From Brachybacterium endophyticum (GTDB lineage Bacteria > Actinomycetota > Actinomycetes > Actinomycetales > Dermabacteraceae), in the NCBI RefSeq assembly GCF_003130585.1, contig NZ_QFKX01000001.1:558001-622000 (forward strand): a stretch of DNA of 64,000 nucleotides. Direction: 5' to 3'. Under the pieces are notes generated by a model. That model was given only the letters and a program-made list of their open reading frames with translations, did not search any database and was not told the origin of the DNA. Made by a program: the position numbers and the translations under genes. Positions 45,803 to 50,861 of the stretch are shown here, piece by piece. Every line of letters begins with the position of its first letter. The first letter of the stretch is position 1.

Positions 45803-47932
45803 GTGAGCGCGGCGACGACGCGCTCCCGGACCGACGCCGGGGTCACGGAGGCGCCTGCCCGCACCCCACGCCGGGTGGGGCCCCGCGCCCTCGCCTCCGG
45901 CGGGGTCGGGCTGGTGCTGCTCGTGGCCGTGCTCGTCCTGGTGGGCGCCTGGCACCTCACCCAGGGCACCTCGGGCGTCGGCCTGGGGGACCTGCTGGGC
46001 GCCGCGCTCGGCCACGAGGACCCCCGCGCCGAGGTCCCCGTCTCCGCGATCCTCTCCGCCTCGCGCCTCCCGCGCCTGCTCGCAGGCGTCGCCGTGGGCT
46101 TCGCCCTCGGCGTGGCCGGTGCCGTGCTGCAGTCCCTGGCCCGCAACGCGCTCGCCTCCCCGGACACGCTCGCGGTCACCTCCGGCTCCTACCTCGCACT
46201 GGTCCTGGTCGCGGCGTTCGAGCTGTCCGTGCCGCTGTGGGCCTCGGGGGCCGTGGCCTTCGCCGGGGGACTCGCCGCGGCCGCCCTCGTCCTCACGATC
46301 GCCGGTGGGTCGGGCACCTCGACCACGCGTCTCGTGCTCGCGGGCTCCGCCGTCGCGCTCGCCCTGCAGGCGGCGACCTCCGCCCTGCTGATCCTCTTCC
46401 AGGTCCAGACCACGGGGCTGTTCGCCTGGGGGAGCGGATCCCTCGCGCAGCTGAACCTCGACGCCTCCCTGCGGGCGATGCCGGTGATCGCCGTGCTGCT
46501 CGCCCTCGCCCTGGTCCTCGCACGCCGCCTGGACGTGCTGGGGCTCGGCGACGACGCCGCCGCGTCCCTCGGCATCTCCGTGCGCCGCACCCGGATGATC
46601 GGGGTCCTGATCGCGGTGCTGCTGACGGCGATCGCCGTGACCGTGGCCGGGCCCGTCGGCTTCGTGGGCCTGGGCGCGCCGGTGCTGGCCCGTCTGCTCG
46701 CCTCCCTGCTGCCGGGTCTGCACCGCCACCTGCTGCTGCTTCCCGCCTCCGGGTTGCTGGGTGCGATCACCGTGATCACGGCCGACGCCCTGCTGCGGGC
46801 CCTGATGGGGGCGCAGGACGCGGCGAAGATCCCGACCGGCATCGCGACCTCGATGGTCGGGGCCGTGATCATGGTGGTGCTCGCCCGACGCCTGCGCGAC
46901 TCGGGTCCCGCCGAGCAGCCGCCGCAGACCCGCACCCCGCCGCGCTCCTCCCGCAGGGCGCTCGCCGTCGGCAGCGGAGCGCTCCTCGCCCTCATCGGCG
47001 CCGCCCTGCTCGGACTGCTCGCGGGCAGCCTCTGGCTGCGCACCGGTGACCTGGTCCTCTGGGCCACCGGCAGCGCCCCCGCACCGATCCGCTTCGCCCT
47101 GGACGAGCGGCTGCCCCGGGTGCTCGCGGCGATCGTGGGCGGCGCCGCCCTCGCGCTCGCCGGCACCGTGGTCCAGTCCACGGTGCGCAACCCCCTGGCC
47201 GAGCCCGGCATCCTGGGCATCACCGCCGGCGCGGGCCTCGGCGCGGTCACCGCCCTCACCCTCGGCGGGGCGGCCGGGGCGAGCCGCCCGGTGATGATCA
47301 GCGCCGCCGTGGCGGCGGGCCTGGTCACCTTCGCGGTCATCTACCTGCTGTCGTGGCGACGCGGGATCCGCCCGGAGCGTCTCGTGCTGGTCGGCATCGG
47401 CATGGGCTTCGGCCTCAGCTCGCTGACCGCGCTGCTGCTGCTGGCGAGCAACCCCTGGGACACCCCGCGCCTGCTGACCTGGCTCTCGGGCACCACCTAC
47501 GGGCGTGCCCTGCCGGACGTCGCCGTGGTGGGCGTCGTGCTGGTGCTCGCCGTCCCGCTCGTGCTGGGGCTCTCGCGCGAGCTCGATCTGCTGGCGCTGG
47601 ACGAGGACTCCCCGAGGATCGTCGGCGTGCGGCTGGAGCGGGTGCGTCTGGCCGTGATCGTGCTGGCGGCCGTGGTCGCCTCGATCAGCGTGGTCGCCGT
47701 CGGCACCGTCGGCTTCGTCGGGCTGGTGGCACCGCACCTGGCGCGGGGCCTGGTGGGCTCTCGTCACGCCCGTACGGTGCCGCTCGCGATGCTGCTGGGC
47801 GGGCTGCTGGTCTCGGTCGCGGACACGCTGGGCCGAACCCTCATCGCCCCCGCCCAGATGCCCGCGGGACTCGTGGTCGCCGTGATCGGCGCCCCGTACT
47901 TCGTCTGGCTGCTCTGGCGCTCACGCGCCTGA
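45803..47932 (+). CDS. fused double FecCD-type siderophore permease (FhuB-like)
   Basis: A 709-residue protein made of two FecCD permease halves of about 10 helices each. Each half has its own signature: RLPRLLAGVAVGFALGVAGAVLQSLARNALA near residue 90 and RLPRVLAAIVGGAALALAGTVVQSTVRNPLA near 435. The ends of the halves are also duplicated (GPVGFVGLGAPVLARLL, then GTVGFVGLVAPHLARGL). This is the FhuB-like arrangement, so one polypeptide forms the entire membrane channel. A GTG start lies 7 bases after the lipoprotein stop. The last 12 bases overlap the convergent ctlX gene. Confidence 0.95.
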   Translation: MSAATTRSRTDAGVTEAPARTPRRVGPRALASGGVGLVLLVAVLVLVGAWHLTQGTSGVGLGDLLGAALGHEDPRAEVPVSAILSASRLPRLLAGVAVGFALGVAGAVLQSLARNALASPDTLAVTSGSYLALVLVAAFELSVPLWASGAVAFAGGLAAAALVLTIAGGSGTSTTRLVLAGSAVALALQAATSALLILFQVQTTGLFAWGSGSLAQLNLDASLRAMPVIAVLLALALVLARRLDVLGLGDDAAASLGISVRRTRMIGVLIAVLLTAIAVTVAGPVGFVGLGAPVLARLLASLLPGLHRHLLLLPASGLLGAITVITADALLRALMGAQDAAKIPTGIATSMVGAVIMVVLARRLRDSGPAEQPPQTRTPPRSSRRALAVGSGALLALIGAALLGLLAGSLWLRTGDLVLWATGSAPAPIRFALDERLPRVLAAIVGGAALALAGTVVQSTVRNPLAEPGILGITAGAGLGAVTALTLGGAAGASRPVMISAAVAAGLVTFAVIYLLSWRRGIRPERLVLVGIGMGFGLSSLTALLLLASNPWDTPRLLTWLSGTTYGRALPDVAVVGVVLVLAVPLVLGLSRELDLLALDEDSPRIVGVRLERVRLAVIVLAAVVASISVVAVGTVGFVGLVAPHLARGLVGSRHARTVPLAMLLGGLLVSVADTLGRTLIAPAQMPAGLVVAVIGAPYFVWLLWRSRA

Positions 47933-48898
47933 GAGCACGCGGGCGTCCTGGGTGTCGCGAACCGCCGTCCGATCCTCGGCGGCCTCCAGGTGCACGCCCG
48001 CGATCATGCAGCGCACCGATCCACCGGCGGTCTCGATCGTCGGCACCGGGACCGCGACGATCCGGCACGAGCGCTCGATGTCCCTCCGCTGCTCCGGGGT
48101 CAGGGACGCCTCGGCCGTGGCCGACATCAGCAGGCAGTGCCCGTCACGTCCCTCGACCTCCAGGCAGTTGCCGAGGAAGGAGCGCACCTGGGACTCGTCG
48201 ATCTCGACGACCGTGCGCCCGCCCTCGCGCAGACGCGCGAGCACCCGCTCCCTCTCGGCCCGGTCGCGGATCATCCCGCTGCCCACCACGGCGAGGTCGG
48301 TCCCGATGCTCATCAGCACGTTCGTGTGGTACACGGGCACGCCGTCGGTGTCGGTCGCGGTGAACAGCAGCGGCTCGTAGCCGAGGTCCGCGCAGACCTC
48401 CTCGAGGAGGGCGGGGCTCAGGCGCCGGGAGCGGCAGGCGAAGGCCAGGCGGTTCACGTGGTCCAGGACCATCGCCCCGGTGCCCTCGAGGAAGCGGTCG
48501 TCGTGCTCCCCGCAGGAGTAGTCCACGACCCGGCGCACCCGGAAGCGCGACAGCACGTGGTCGACGATGTCGCGGCGGCGCTCGGCGCGCCGGCTCGGGG
48601 CGTACATCGGGAACAGGGCCAGGGTGCCGTCGGGATGCGTGCTCAGCCAGTTGTTGGGGAAGACGCTGTCGGGCGTGGTGGCGCCGTCGTCGTCGAAGAC
48701 GTCGACCTCGACGCCGATCGCCCGCAGCGCGCCGGCCAGCTCCGTGACCTCGCGCCGCGCCCGGGCGGCGAGCACCCGCGGAGGGATACCCCCCACCCCG
48801 GCGATGTCCTCGAAGGCGTTGTCGAGAGCTGTCTCCGGGTTCGCCGTGAAATGGTGCGGACGCACCAGGATCGCGCGGGACGGTGCCTGCGCGCTCAT
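47921..48898 (-). CDS. ctlX: citrulline utilization hydrolase CtlX-type amidinotransferase
   Basis: A 325-residue protein of the guanidine-modifying (amidinotransferase) fold. Motifs: SVFPNNWLSTHPDGTLALFPMYAPSRRAERR near residue 80, the acidic residue in RFLEGTGAMVLDH, the catalytic His in VYHTNVLMSIG and the Cys in TAGGSVRCMIAGVHL near the C-terminus. The set matches CtlX, which is linked to citrulline degradation to ornithine. Its ATG overlaps the stop of the ornithine cyclodeaminase gene, so the two likely convert citrulline through ornithine to proline (inference). The divergent Lrp/AsnC gene is a likely regulator. Confidence 0.88.
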   Translation of the reverse strand: MSAQAPSRAILVRPHHFTANPETALDNAFEDIAGVGGIPPRVLAARARREVTELAGALRAIGVEVDVFDDDGATTPDSVFPNNWLSTHPDGTLALFPMYAPSRRAERRRDIVDHVLSRFRVRRVVDYSCGEHDDRFLEGTGAMVLDHVNRLAFACRSRRLSPALLEEVCADLGYEPLLFTATDTDGVPVYHTNVLMSIGTDLAVVGSGMIRDRAERERVLARLREGGRTVVEIDESQVRSFLGNCLEVEGRDGHCLLMSATAEASLTPEQRRDIERSCRIVAVPVPTIETAGGSVRCMIAGVHLEAAEDRTAVRDTQDARVLSGA

Positions 48899-49929
48899 CG
48901 GGGTCCGATCGGCGCCAGGCTGGTGACCAGCGAGAACAGATCCTTGGGGTCTTCTGGCGAGGCGACCAGGTCCACGTCCGAGACCAGCTCCGTGCCGCCC
49001 GTGGCCTCCCTCGCGCAGCACAGCGCCGAGAAGTCGGAGATCGCGAAGCCCACCGAGTCGAACACCGTGATCTCCTCGGCCGACGTGCGAGCCGCGGCGC
49101 TGCCCGTGAGCACCTCCCACAGCTCGGTGACGGGGAAGTCGGCCGCCATCTGCTGGATCTCGCCCTCGATGCGGGTCTGCGGGGTGAACTCGACGAACAC
49201 CCGGGCGTCCTCGAGGATCCTGGGGTCGAGCTCGGTCTTGCCGGGGCAGTCGCCGCCGATCGCGTTGATGTGCACGCCCGGCTGCACGTCGGCCAGGTCC
49301 AGCACGTGGTTCTGCGCCTTGTCGGCCGTGCAGGTGGTGATGACGTCGGCGCCGAGGGTCGCCTCCGCGGCCGATGCGGCCTCGTGGATCCGGAAGCCGA
49401 GCGGCTCGAGGTTGCGACGCACCTTCGCGACGGCCTCCGGGTCGATGTCGAACACGCGCAGGTCCTCGATGCCCAGCACCCCGCGGAAGGCGAGGGCCTG
49501 GAACTCCGACTGCGAGCCCGCGCCGATCAGGGCGAGGACGCGGGAGTCCGGCCGGGCGAGGGCGCGCGCCGCCATCGCCGAGGCCGCGGCGGTGCGCAGG
49601 GCCGTCAGCAGCGTCATCTCGGCGAGGAACACGGGGTATCCGTTGTCGACGTCGGCCAGGACGCCGAACGCGGTGACGGTCTGGAACCCGCGCGCGGGAT
49701 TGGACGGATGGCCGTTGACGTACTTGAAGGAGTAGGTGACCCCGTCGGACGTCGGCATCAGCTCGATGACGCCGAAGGGCGTGTGGCTCGCGATGCGGGG
49801 GATCCGCTCGAAGCTCTGCCACCGGGCGAAGTCCGCCTGGAGGCGCTCGGTCATCGTGGTGAGGATGTGCTGGGCGCCGTCCCGCTGGATCCAGCGGGCC
49901 ATGTTCGCCACGTCGAGAAGCTGTGTCAT
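48895..49929 (-). CDS. ornithine cyclodeaminase
   Basis: A 344-residue member of the ornithine cyclodeaminase/mu-crystallin family, which uses NAD to convert ornithine to proline and ammonia. The substrate region shows YSFKYVNGHPSNPARG, the Rossmann motif is ALIGAGSQSEFQALAF, and VITTCTADKAQ and HINAIGGDCPGKTELD follow; the Asp of the latter is the expected catalytic residue. The ATG at 49929 has AGGAGA 9 bases upstream; longer in-frame starts lack such a site. It is the first gene of the ocd-ctlX pair and divergent from the Lrp/AsnC gene. Confidence 0.9.
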   Translation of the reverse strand: MTQLLDVANMARWIQRDGAQHILTTMTERLQADFARWQSFERIPRIASHTPFGVIELMPTSDGVTYSFKYVNGHPSNPARGFQTVTAFGVLADVDNGYPVFLAEMTLLTALRTAAASAMAARALARPDSRVLALIGAGSQSEFQALAFRGVLGIEDLRVFDIDPEAVAKVRRNLEPLGFRIHEAASAAEATLGADVITTCTADKAQNHVLDLADVQPGVHINAIGGDCPGKTELDPRILEDARVFVEFTPQTRIEGEIQQMAADFPVTELWEVLTGSAAARTSAEEITVFDSVGFAISDFSALCCAREATGGTELVSDVDLVASPEDPKDLFSLVTSLAPIGPR

Positions 49930-50047
49930 CGTCGATCGTCTCCTGGTCATCGCCGATGGCCCGGCGTCCGCGGGATCGCGGACGTCCTGACCCTGACCAG
50001 GCCAGAGTAGATTTCGCAGATGGCAGGAGTAAGAGGCGAGACGCTCC

Positions 50048-50097
50048 ACTTCTGTGAAGTCGGTGCGCAGAATGTGGCCCTCTGATTAGCATTCTGC
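50048..50097. promoter_or_regulatory. two dyads in the ocd-lrp divergent region
   Basis: ACTTC-TGT-GAAGT (50048-50060) is a perfect 13-base dyad. GCAGAATG (50067-50074) and CATTCTGC (50090-50097) form a perfect 8-bp inverted repeat with a 15-base spacer that covers the lrp -10 element TAGCAT (50087-50092). The second site ends 2 bases before the lrp ATG, so occupancy would shut off lrp; both are probable Lrp sites. Confidence 0.6.
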
Positions 50098-50099
50098 TC

Positions 50100-50543
50100 A
50101 TGGAGAGTGCTCGTGATCGTCTGACCGACCTGGATCACCGTCTGCTGGCGGAGCTGCGCCGTGACGGCCGCGCCCCGATCGCGACGCTCGCCTCGCGCCT
50201 CGGCGTCTCCCGGGCGACGGTCACCCACCGTCTCGAGCGGCTGACCACGCAGGGTGTGATCGTGGGCTTCACCGTGCGGGTGCGGGACTACGTGCAGGAG
50301 GCCGCGGTGCGGGCGATCTCCTTCATCGAGGTCGAGGGACGCACCACCGACCGGGTGATCGAGAACCTGCGCGGCTTCGCGGAGATCCAGAACCTCCACA
50401 CCACCAACGGCGGCTGGGACCTGGTGGCGGAGATCGCGTGCCCGGACCTGCCGGCCTTCGACGAGGTGCTGCGCAGGGTCCGCGGCATCGACGGCGTCGT
50501 GAACTCCGAGACCAGTCTGCTGCTGAGCTCCGTGGTGCGGTGA
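50100..50543 (+). CDS. Lrp/AsnC-family transcriptional regulator
   Basis: A 147-residue regulator. The N-terminal helix-turn-helix reads LTDLDHRLLAELRRDGRAPIATLASRLGVSRATVTHRLERLTTQGVI, and the C-terminal ligand-binding ACT-like RAM domain contains IENLRGFAEIQNLHTTNGGWDLVAEIACPDL. The ATG is 7 bases after TAGCAT with no ribosome binding site, so the transcript is likely leaderless. Its position opposite ocd-ctlX suggests that it responds to an amino acid of that pathway, such as ornithine, citrulline or proline (inference). Confidence 0.93.
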   Translation: MESARDRLTDLDHRLLAELRRDGRAPIATLASRLGVSRATVTHRLERLTTQGVIVGFTVRVRDYVQEAAVRAISFIEVEGRTTDRVIENLRGFAEIQNLHTTNGGWDLVAEIACPDLPAFDEVLRRVRGIDGVVNSETSLLLSSVVR

Positions 50544-50556
50544 GGACGTCGGCGGC

Positions 50557-50580
50557 GCCCGGGGCGATCCGCGCCCGGGC
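50557..50580 (+). terminator. hairpin after lrp
   Basis: GCCCGGG (50557-50563) and CCCGGGC (50574-50580) form a 7-bp stem with a 10-base loop, 13 bases after the lrp stop. No T-tract. Confidence 0.45.
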
Positions 50581-50586
50581 ATGGGC

Positions 50587-50646
50587 GGACCCGCAGGCCG
50601 CGCTGGTGCGCCTGCCGGATGGACGAGGTCCGGCGCCTGCGGGTCC
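50587..50646. other. 60-base inverted-repeat element that can fold as a three-way junction
   Basis: Outer arms GGACCCGCAGGC (50587-50598) and GCCTGCGGGTCC (50635-50646) are perfect 12-bp complements. Inside are two small hairpins: GCGC-TGGT-GCGC (50600-50611) and GCCGGA with TCCGGC (50614-50634). Only 1, 2 and 0 bases join the three stems. In a genome this rich in GC, long inverted repeats also arise by chance, so the structure is a proposal. It lies on the minus strand downstream of the small ORF described below. Confidence 0.4.
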
Positions 50647-50690
50647 GGGCAGCTCGGTGGGATTCGCTGCACGTCCCTCGATCTGGTGGT

Positions 50691-50707
50691 CGGCGGGATG
50701 CCCGCCG
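50691..50707. other. GC-rich hairpin downstream of the small ORF
   Basis: CGGCGGG and CCCGCCG form a 7-bp stem with a 3-base loop. On the minus strand it begins 20 bases after the stop of the 12-codon ORF, a place where attenuator or terminator stems occur. Confidence 0.4.
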
Positions 50708-50726
50708 GGTCAGGTCGATGGTCGCC

Positions 50727-50765
50727 TCAGCGGCGAGCCACCTCACACGTCCGCGAATTCTTCAT
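50727..50765 (-). CDS. candidate 12-residue leader peptide with a perfect Shine-Dalgarno sequence
   Basis: The frame encodes MKNSRTCEVARR and a stop. Eleven bases after AGGAGG comes its ATG; the whole site AAGGAGGTGATCC (50783-50771 on the minus strand) is complementary over 13 bases to the 3' end of 16S rRNA as found in nearly all bacteria. A promoter-like pair precedes it: TTGCCG (50827-50822), an 18-base spacer and TACGCT (50803-50798). A single Cys codon and a dense Arg pair are the only notable residues. No gene follows on this strand before the 3' end of lrp, so what it would control is unclear. Confidence 0.45.
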   Translation of the reverse strand: MKNSRTCEVARR

Positions 50766-50770
50766 CCGTC

Positions 50771-50827
50771 GGATCACCTCCTTCCCTGTGTCCGACGAGC
50801 GTAGATCCGGCCGGGAACGAGCGGCAA
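50771..50827 (-). promoter_or_regulatory. promoter and ribosome binding site for the 12-codon ORF
   Basis: On the minus strand: -35 TTGCCG, 18 bases, -10 TACGCT, then 14 bases and the 13-base ribosome binding site AAGGAGGTGATCC. The last is by far the longest anti-Shine-Dalgarno match I noticed in the window. Confidence 0.5.
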
Positions 50828-50861
50828 GGGAATTACGCCGTGGGCGCGACAGGTCCGGCGG

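Follow-up and report, generated by a model that had tools for sequence, protein, structure and literature searches.

By sequence comparison, a short minus-strand element in the genome of Brachybacterium endophyticum is the local copy of a widespread actinobacterial small RNA, Ms_IGR-5 (Rfam RF02471), and not a product of chance. On balance, we consider it probable that this molecule is a translated regulatory RNA, driven by WhiB7 and gated by the ribosome. The DNA studied (assembly GCF_003130585.1, contig NZ_QFKX01000001.1, positions 558,001-622,000 of the forward strand) is a 64-kb stretch, called the window here, and all positions are counted within it. The original prediction had described on the minus strand TTGCCG, an 18-base spacer, TACGCT, AAGGAGGTGATCC, an ORF of 12 codons, a GC hairpin and, 3′ of it, a strong stem-loop, every one of which is present. 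The features of the element are as follows.

50580..50791, minus strand: whole RNA, full-length Ms_IGR-5 homologue (cmscan)
50831..50836, minus strand: A/T block GTAATT of WhiB7/WblC type, 3 bp upstream of the -35 hexamer (match to published consensus)
50822..50827, minus strand: -35 hexamer TTGCCG (sequence)
50798..50803, minus strand: -10 hexamer TACGCT, with the predicted RNA start at about 50791, 7 bp downstream (sequence)
50787..50790, minus strand: 5′ strand of helix P1, CACA, at the RNA 5′ end, pairing with 50747-50744 (covariation)
50771..50783, minus strand: Shine-Dalgarno (SD) site AAGGAGGTGATCC, 13 nt (full complementarity to the 16S tail)
50727..50765, minus strand: ORF MKNSRTCEVARR, 12 codons, ATG to TGA (start, frame and stop conserved)
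50749..50752, minus strand: pseudoknot (PK) ORF strand GGAC, codons 5-6, +14 to +17, pairing with the loop of the 3′ stem (GGAU/AUCC co-change)
50744..50747, minus strand: 3′ strand of P1, TGTG, codons 7-8 (covariation)
50734..50742, minus strand: 5′ strand of helix P2, GGTGGCTCG, codons 8-11 (covariation)
50722..50736, minus strand: local hairpin TCGCC/GGCGA over the ORF end and stop codon, competing with P2 (pairing counts)
50668..50726, minus strand: linker from stop codon to 3′ block, variable and foldable, 7-100 nt in the family (locus comparison)
50660..50667, minus strand: conserved GCGAATCC, unpaired in the model (alignment column counts)
50648..50656, minus strand: 3′ strand of P2, conserved block CGAGCTGCC (covariation)
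50588..50645, minus strand: terminator-like 3′ stem-loop, its outer stem pairing 50645-50636 with 50597-50588 (pairing conserved)
50621..50624, minus strand: GTCC, the PK strand that lies in the loop of the 3′ stem (co-change)

A cmscan search matched 50580-50791 (-) to RF02471 over the full model (1-184 of 184) with 61.4 bits and an E value of 3.3e-11, above the gathering score of 45 that decides membership of Ms_IGR-5. This was the sole match in the 64 kb at gathering thresholds and the one copy in the genome. The element is thus no orphan, as had been proposed, but belongs to a known Rfam family with homologues reported as transcribed and ribosome-protected. A homologue is transcribed in S. 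lividans (PMC8079986), forms an sRNA unit in S. avermitilis (PMC8780764) and overlaps ncMSMEG15794c in M. smegmatis (PMC10454040), and ribosome protection of homologues is reported for both M. abscessus and M. smegmatis (PMC4974804), the authors of the last study cautioning that ribosome-protected ncRNAs may reflect RNP complexes, without clear evidence of translation. The portions of the literature at hand on these four species' homologues state no function for RF02471, and a literature search for the peptide string TREVAAR gave no match. Set against the literature found, our results suggest that the conserved mini-ORF, the fold in which that ORF has three partners and the WhiB7-type promoter are new features of RF02471. 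A tRNA/tmRNA search found none, and a plus-strand reading of GGATCACCTCCTT as a 16S fragment was dropped, the Rfam scan having given no rRNA match.

RF02471 was found in 68 of 118 relatives, in 192 of 296 genomes of a sample of the class and in 227 of 248 genomes of a Mycobacterium sample (the genus of G391, a label taken from the match of its element DNA to named Mycobacterium records). Because family searches of more than 40 genomes used stricter filters by which weak matches are lost, the absences are upper bounds. Some genomes gave two or more matches (four in G536), and the extra ones examined in Mycobacterium were opposite-strand partial matches to the 3′ stem. Two loci from 3.3-Mb single-contig genomes of the Mycobacterium sample (L189 in G462 and L190 in G497) had low RF02471 scores, 86.9 and 61.8 bits; L190 was without the motif as defined by the search pattern, and L189 reads TAG at the Glu codon, at a place picked by that pattern. 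These are possibly decaying copies in reduced genomes. The main alignment comprised 185 rows, from which we had left out duplicates, the degenerate L189, L139 with an N in its sequence and L190, where the motif was not matched; because the rows are related, the loci counted below are not independent events.

The SD site and the mini-ORF are the first conserved parts of the RNA. In its wobble form, RRGGAGGTGRTYY, the 13-mer occurs once in the window against 0.10 occurrences expected from shuffles, which agrees with the earlier view that so long a match is rare by chance. With wobble allowed, all 13 pairs to what we take to be the sequence of the 16S tail are kept in 183 of 185 aligned loci. A first ORF table of 158 loci gave a length of 12 codons in 151, and the start stood 10-13 nt past GGAGG with four exceptions. 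Three of these, L084, L087 and L140, had been placed too far upstream (CTG) by the script, and L082 was without a start. The aligned starts are those of the 185-row alignment, where AUG, GUG or UUG stands in 184 rows (UUG 81, GUG 52, AUG 51, AUU 1). The stops are UAG in 141 rows, UGA in 41 and UAA in one; of the two departing cells, one is gapped in the alignment but TGA in the locus table (L068), and the other reads CAG followed by TAG (L118). Internal stops were found in none of the 185 rows, while the two other frames had stops in 159 and 175 rows, and composition alone would lead us to expect them in about 34 rows within codons 2-4. The reading frame therefore has the conserved start, openness and stop of a translated small ORF. 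Conservation of the ORF and SD site across the family is supported by these comparisons, and the ORF is predicted to be translated in this organism.

Mutual information, calculated with no structure assumed, placed three sets of pairs at the top: the 3′ stem, P2 (the ORF end with the block before the stem) and P1 (the RNA 5′ end with codons 7-8). Some other high-scoring pairs are not complementary and look like the result of shared ancestry. The 3′ stem is paired in 1466 of 1480 cells against a shuffled maximum of 82.6%; the reservation that such arms could arise by chance in GC-rich DNA does not hold for this big stem, because it is conserved. P2, tested over ten pairs, is formed in 1752 of 1838 cells (95.3%), with a mean of 84.4% and a maximum of 85.8% in shuffles and at most 57.5% when slid. 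For P1, a short helix, five tested pairs gave 749 of 900 cells (shuffled maximum 80.1%); four of them are formed in 690 of 715 cells, and the fifth (9-47) is unsupported at 59 of 185. Within the 32 rows of the window's genus, P2 is paired in 288 of 288 cells over nine pairs and P1 in 118 of 121. An element tree, built from fewer than 300 nt and noisy, shows repeated compensatory changes for both P1 and P2. Relatives had been named in the original prediction as the place to look for conservation of the ORF, SD site and stems and for compensatory changes in the stems, and all of these were found there.

This overlap of frame and fold bears on whether the dodecapeptide is itself the product, with the RNA structure only tuning its synthesis. 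The conserved start, frame, length and stop speak for such a small-peptide gene, as does a C-terminal part like RT[RC]EV that is common to most of the ORF peptides. Codons 2-4, however, vary freely (120 distinct strings in 185 rows), the Arg/Cys at codon 7 switches together with the RNA 5′ end (GC/AU, columns 8-48), and the invariant Glu-Val codons lie in P1/P2. With codons 2-4 free and the majority of conserved residues encoded by bases that pair, the bioactive peptide offered as one option in the original prediction is doubtful, and we regard a peptide gene as improbable.

The small GC hairpin first described at the end of the ORF is present, and stood the comparison in part: the 32 loci of the genus keep TCGCC/GGCGA in 153 of 160 cells, all 185 rows together in 507 of 920, which marks the hairpin as a feature of the genus and not of the family as far as aligned sequences tell. 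Another register, which suits loci of the UAG type, is paired in 851 of 1289 cells; shuffles gave 64.9% on average and 65.7% at most. Because the local hairpin uses bases of codons 10-12 it excludes P2, and the ORF end therefore has two possible partners in the window's genus. The ORF overlaps P1, P2 and the pseudoknot, with a competing hairpin conserved in the genus only.

The Rfam structure of RF02471 differs from this model in leaving the 3′ block unpaired and in pairing the SD site with codons 10-11, and P1, P2 and the pseudoknot are absent from it. The Rfam stem between SD and codons 10-11 (stem 1) is formed in 957 of 1110 cells over the 185 rows and fits the window's genus poorly, at 101 of 192. 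For the window copy alone, RNAfold gave a minimum free energy of -106.8 kcal/mol; forcing P1 and P2 changed this to -106.4 kcal/mol. Pair probabilities were about 0.62 for P2 and 0.05 for P1, and energy folding of this single copy decides neither for nor against the model. At 50551-50587 (-), beyond the 3′ stem, and at the same place in related loci lies a partly conserved stretch of the form cc.tg.ccgg; the window copy has no U-run after the stem. This stretch could be the RNA 3′ end, a site of further pairing or a terminator variant.

The third partner of the ORF is the loop of the 3′ stem. In the alignment, GGAC in the ORF and GUCC in the loop are invariant but for five rows that hint at co-change. 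A search of one family for another base at the C of GGAC, with the SD fixed, found it in 33 of 294 genomes, all with GGAU; as the pattern fixed the SD, its unchanged state in these loci is by construction. Thirty of the 33 were fetched (three of them, L202, L211 and L220, from genomes already in the alignment), and the loop region carried AUCC in 29 and kept GUCC in one (L217); AUCC stood in the aligned columns in 27 of the 30, L211 and L213 being out of register. With the SD left free, the search returned 74 matches in 294 genomes; judged by sequence, three of these (in G815, G807 and G780) are something other than the element, and in the remaining 71 the SD reads GUCC in 36 and AUCC in 35. 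Thirty-eight of these elements were new, and the 20 fetched all had AUCC in the loop region, which brings the total for fetched GGAU loci to 49 of 50.

Counted by distinct rows, an ORF with GGAC (n=180) goes with GUCC alone in the loop in 167, with both motifs in 12, with another in one and with AUCC alone in none, and the loop region of the window, GTCCATCC, is of the kind with both motifs. An ORF with GGAU (n=51) goes with AUCC alone in 48 rows, both in one and GUCC in two. The loop base follows the ORF whether the SD reads AUCC or GUCC. Before the last 20 loci were included, the pair 46-150 was formed in 210 of 212 distinct rows, compared with 187.0 on average and at most 194 in shuffles. 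An extension pair, 47-149, was formed in 121 of 211 rows, the shuffles giving a mean of 91.9 and a maximum of 111; in the window's genus 7 of 32 rows have it, and the pseudoknot itself is paired there in 128 of 128 cells. On the element tree the pseudoknot shows two joint changes from CG to UA and two from UA to CG. Because three of its four core pairs are nearly invariant, the covariation rests on one position, and all GGAU cases but one row (L129) come from a single family, in which they occupy three genera. P2 and the loop lie 19-26 nt apart, a narrow range that would be expected of a loop obliged to reach back to the ORF; from loop to 3′ arm the distance is 13-57 nt, and from stop to block 7-100 nt. 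A stem between the SD and codons 5-6 (H1), both strands of which are nearly invariant, is a possible alternative. Overall, the comparative evidence supports a fold in which codons 5-11 act as a splint with three partners, namely the loop, the RNA 5′ end and the 3′ block.

Our analysis also identified the probable source of control. The promoter pair given in the original prediction is present, and the A/T block GTAATT upstream of it, the telling part of the promoter, had been missed. The WblC/WhiB7 consensus consists of GAAAWY, a -35 TKGMNN and a -10 TANNNT at a spacing of 16-19 (PMC7157823), the same WhiB7-type layout being published in PMC10727445, and the window reads GTAATT-CCC-TTGCCG-18-TACGCT, which fits it. 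Among 188 of the 189 loci (L189 left out), TANNNT is at the right place in 187, and TKG together with at least three of four A/T in the block occurs in 155, against a mean of 0.16 and a maximum of 2 in 200 shuffles; the A/T block is found at 7 of 102 other promoter-like sites of these loci. The assignment of the promoter of the RNA to the WhiB7/WblC type is supported by these sequence patterns, and control by WhiB7 in this organism is predicted from them.

The distribution of WhiB7 fits such control. A WhiB7 signature was present in 186 of 192 RNA-bearing genomes of the class sample (six without) and in 65 of 68 such relatives, the three exceptions among the relatives being assemblies less than 90% complete. 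Genomes with no detected RNA carried the signature in 30 of 104 cases in the class sample and 12 of 50 among the relatives; expressed the other way, 30 of 216 and 12 of 77 WhiB7-positive genomes were without the RNA. In the Mycobacterium sample, 21 of 248 genomes were without an RF02471 match, and the WhiB7 signature was found in at least two of these (G311 and G344); a genome can thus have WhiB7 without having the RNA. The window's own genome (G000) encodes WhiB7, with one signature match and RGRP in an open frame (L194), and RGRP was found in all ten fetched signature frames. Four of the ten WhiB7 loci (L191-L200) have a promoter of WhiB7 type no more than about 760 bases upstream of the signature, which self-activation would predict; with the strict pattern, none was found upstream of WhiB7 in the window's genome (L194).

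A possible link to published expression data comes from M. abscessus ncRNA1 (736028 in ATCC 19977), a stand-alone ncRNA at a WhiB7 peak that resembles the element in its WhiB7-type motif and convergent neighbour, and that was about 100-fold down in a whiB7 deletion (PMC10727445). In three single-contig Mycobacterium genomes, 165-nt RF02471 copies lie on the plus strand at 646-696 kb, and in a fourth at 854 kb; the position and convergent neighbour of ncRNA1 resemble those of RF02471 copies in related genomes. A scan of named records with a pattern drawn from other species gave no M. abscessus record. We infer that ncRNA1 is probably the same RNA as the RF02471 copy, and the ncRNA1 literature, in the parts available, makes no connection to Ms_IGR-5.

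The neighbourhood of the RNA varies. In the window it is flanked by lrp (AsnC family) and a GNAT acetyltransferase gene; lrp is the next gene after the element and lies on the opposite strand. A long ORF at 47921-50101 (-), called ctlX originally, carries a dimethylarginine dimethylhydrolase-like domain (PF19420, residues 418-703). A rough ORF caller placed the neighbour convergently in 72 of 184 loci and on the same strand in 112 of 184, the latter count including some ORFs that start inside the element. By Pfam names, the convergent gene is THAP4-like in 51 of 189 loci and PNPOx-like in 27 of 189. On the same strand, 3′ of the RNA, stand an esterase-like gene in 24 of 189 loci, mostly close, with 23 of the 24 matches starting 188-311 nt after the SD (query L014, from the window's genus); a gene in 11 of 189 that is presumably phosphoglycerate-mutase-like, a finer name than the histidine-phosphatase domain behind it; and citrate synthase in 21 of 189, matched at least 1.2 kb away. 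At L014, the esterase-like gene stands where the window has the opposite-strand lrp. None of these five families is near most loci, which argues for a gene in its own right and against one fixed partner.

These arrangements weigh on two cis-acting alternatives. The sequence of SD, mini-ORF, alternative pairing and terminator-like hairpin is the layout of an attenuator, as was originally noted, and the close esterase-like and mutase-like genes could be what such a leader controls. In the window, however, the next gene is on the other strand, each close same-strand family occupies a minority of loci and the citrate synthase match is distant, which makes a cis attenuator or leader of a downstream gene the least probable account considered here, although some relatives have a close same-strand gene and a leader role is possible in species with the esterase-like gene. 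What stood of that first description is the attenuator-like layout, the translated and structured small RNA and the lack of a gene of its own downstream in the window. A second alternative makes the RNA an antisense regulator of a convergent neighbour. In the window this would be lrp, and in M. abscessus the 3′ UTR of a neighbour, an idea put forward for ncRNA1, which is reported to be complementary to the MAB_0732c 3′ UTR (PMC10727445). The convergent layout in the window, in 72 loci by the rough caller and with the THAP4-like and PNPOx-like genes is in keeping with this, but the convergent gene differs between clades and, by the rough caller, other loci have a same-strand neighbour. The predicted RNA also stops near 50580, some 37 bases before it would reach the stop codon of lrp (50541-50543). 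Antisense action on the ocd-ctlX/lrp locus, as originally suggested, is therefore unsupported as a conserved function, since neighbours differ by clade and the RNA ends before lrp, and we hold the antisense explanation to be very unlikely.

A trans-acting sRNA, whose 3′ block and loop GUCC would act on mRNAs while the ORF lets ribosomes control RNA lifetime, has more in its favour and is still unlikely. No downstream partner is common to the clades, a conserved GCGAAUnCC lies next to P2 and four independent intergenic ncRNAs of the S. coelicolor WblC regulon have been proposed to act in trans (PMC7157823). Against this, the most conserved 3′ segments are already explained by pairing with the ORF.

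The preferred model is one in which a WhiB7-driven RNA is gated by the ribosome. Made from a promoter of WhiB7 type, the RNA would appear under ribosome stress. In the folded molecule codons 5-11 would form one continuous splint, with GGAC (+14 to +17) paired to the loop of the 3′ stem, YGUG (+19 to +22) to the RNA 5′ end and GGUGnCUnCC (+24 to +33) to the 3′ block, whereas the SD, start codon and codons 2-4, which have no covarying partner, would be a landing pad for the 30S subunit. The leading edge of a ribosome with the start codon in its P site lies at about +15, and a ribosome at the start codon would there meet the knot that begins at +14. Its movement to the stop codon would strip the splint from its three partners and so release the 5′ end, the loop and the 3′ block. 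With codons 5-11 inside three helices, translation would have to take the fold apart, so the presence and progress of the ribosome would set the shape of the RNA, and in the window's genus the local hairpin at the ORF end would offer a second shape. As output, the freed segments may act on other RNAs, or the RNA may hold initiating ribosomes; this switch and its output are predicted from the pairing pattern.

With a fold that the ribosome would undo, the RNA is probably a sensor or a trap of ribosomes. We put forward tentatively the fuller proposal of a stand-alone sensor or trap, in which the 13-bp SD duplex and the pseudoknot at +14 would grip the initiating ribosome, the codons would be a removable splint and the act of translation would be the signal, rather than the peptide or a downstream gene. 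SgrS/SgrT is a dual-function sRNA with an internal ORF, and its ORF and pairing region are separate; the element likewise has an internal ORF, but its own codons would be the structural core. The attenuator uORF of whiB7 shares with the element a strong SD, a short ORF, a stem-loop and the same stress pathway (PMC4128351); it is a leader of whiB7, whereas no gene follows the element on its strand and the ORF lies within a pseudoknotted fold. The antibiotic-sensing uORF upstream of topAI-yjhQ in E. coli is similar in that its signal is the stalling of a ribosome on a short ORF, and differs in acting in cis on a downstream operon (PMC12121999).

If the proposal is correct and this ribosome sensor or trap acts in trans, it would represent a type of translation-stress RNA that is new, and one that much of an actinobacterial class has in common. 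It would also be unusual as a regulatory RNA whose structural core consists of codons. The link between WhiB7, a mini-ORF and a pseudoknot would give RF02471 a testable mechanism in a pathway of intrinsic antibiotic tolerance in actinobacteria.
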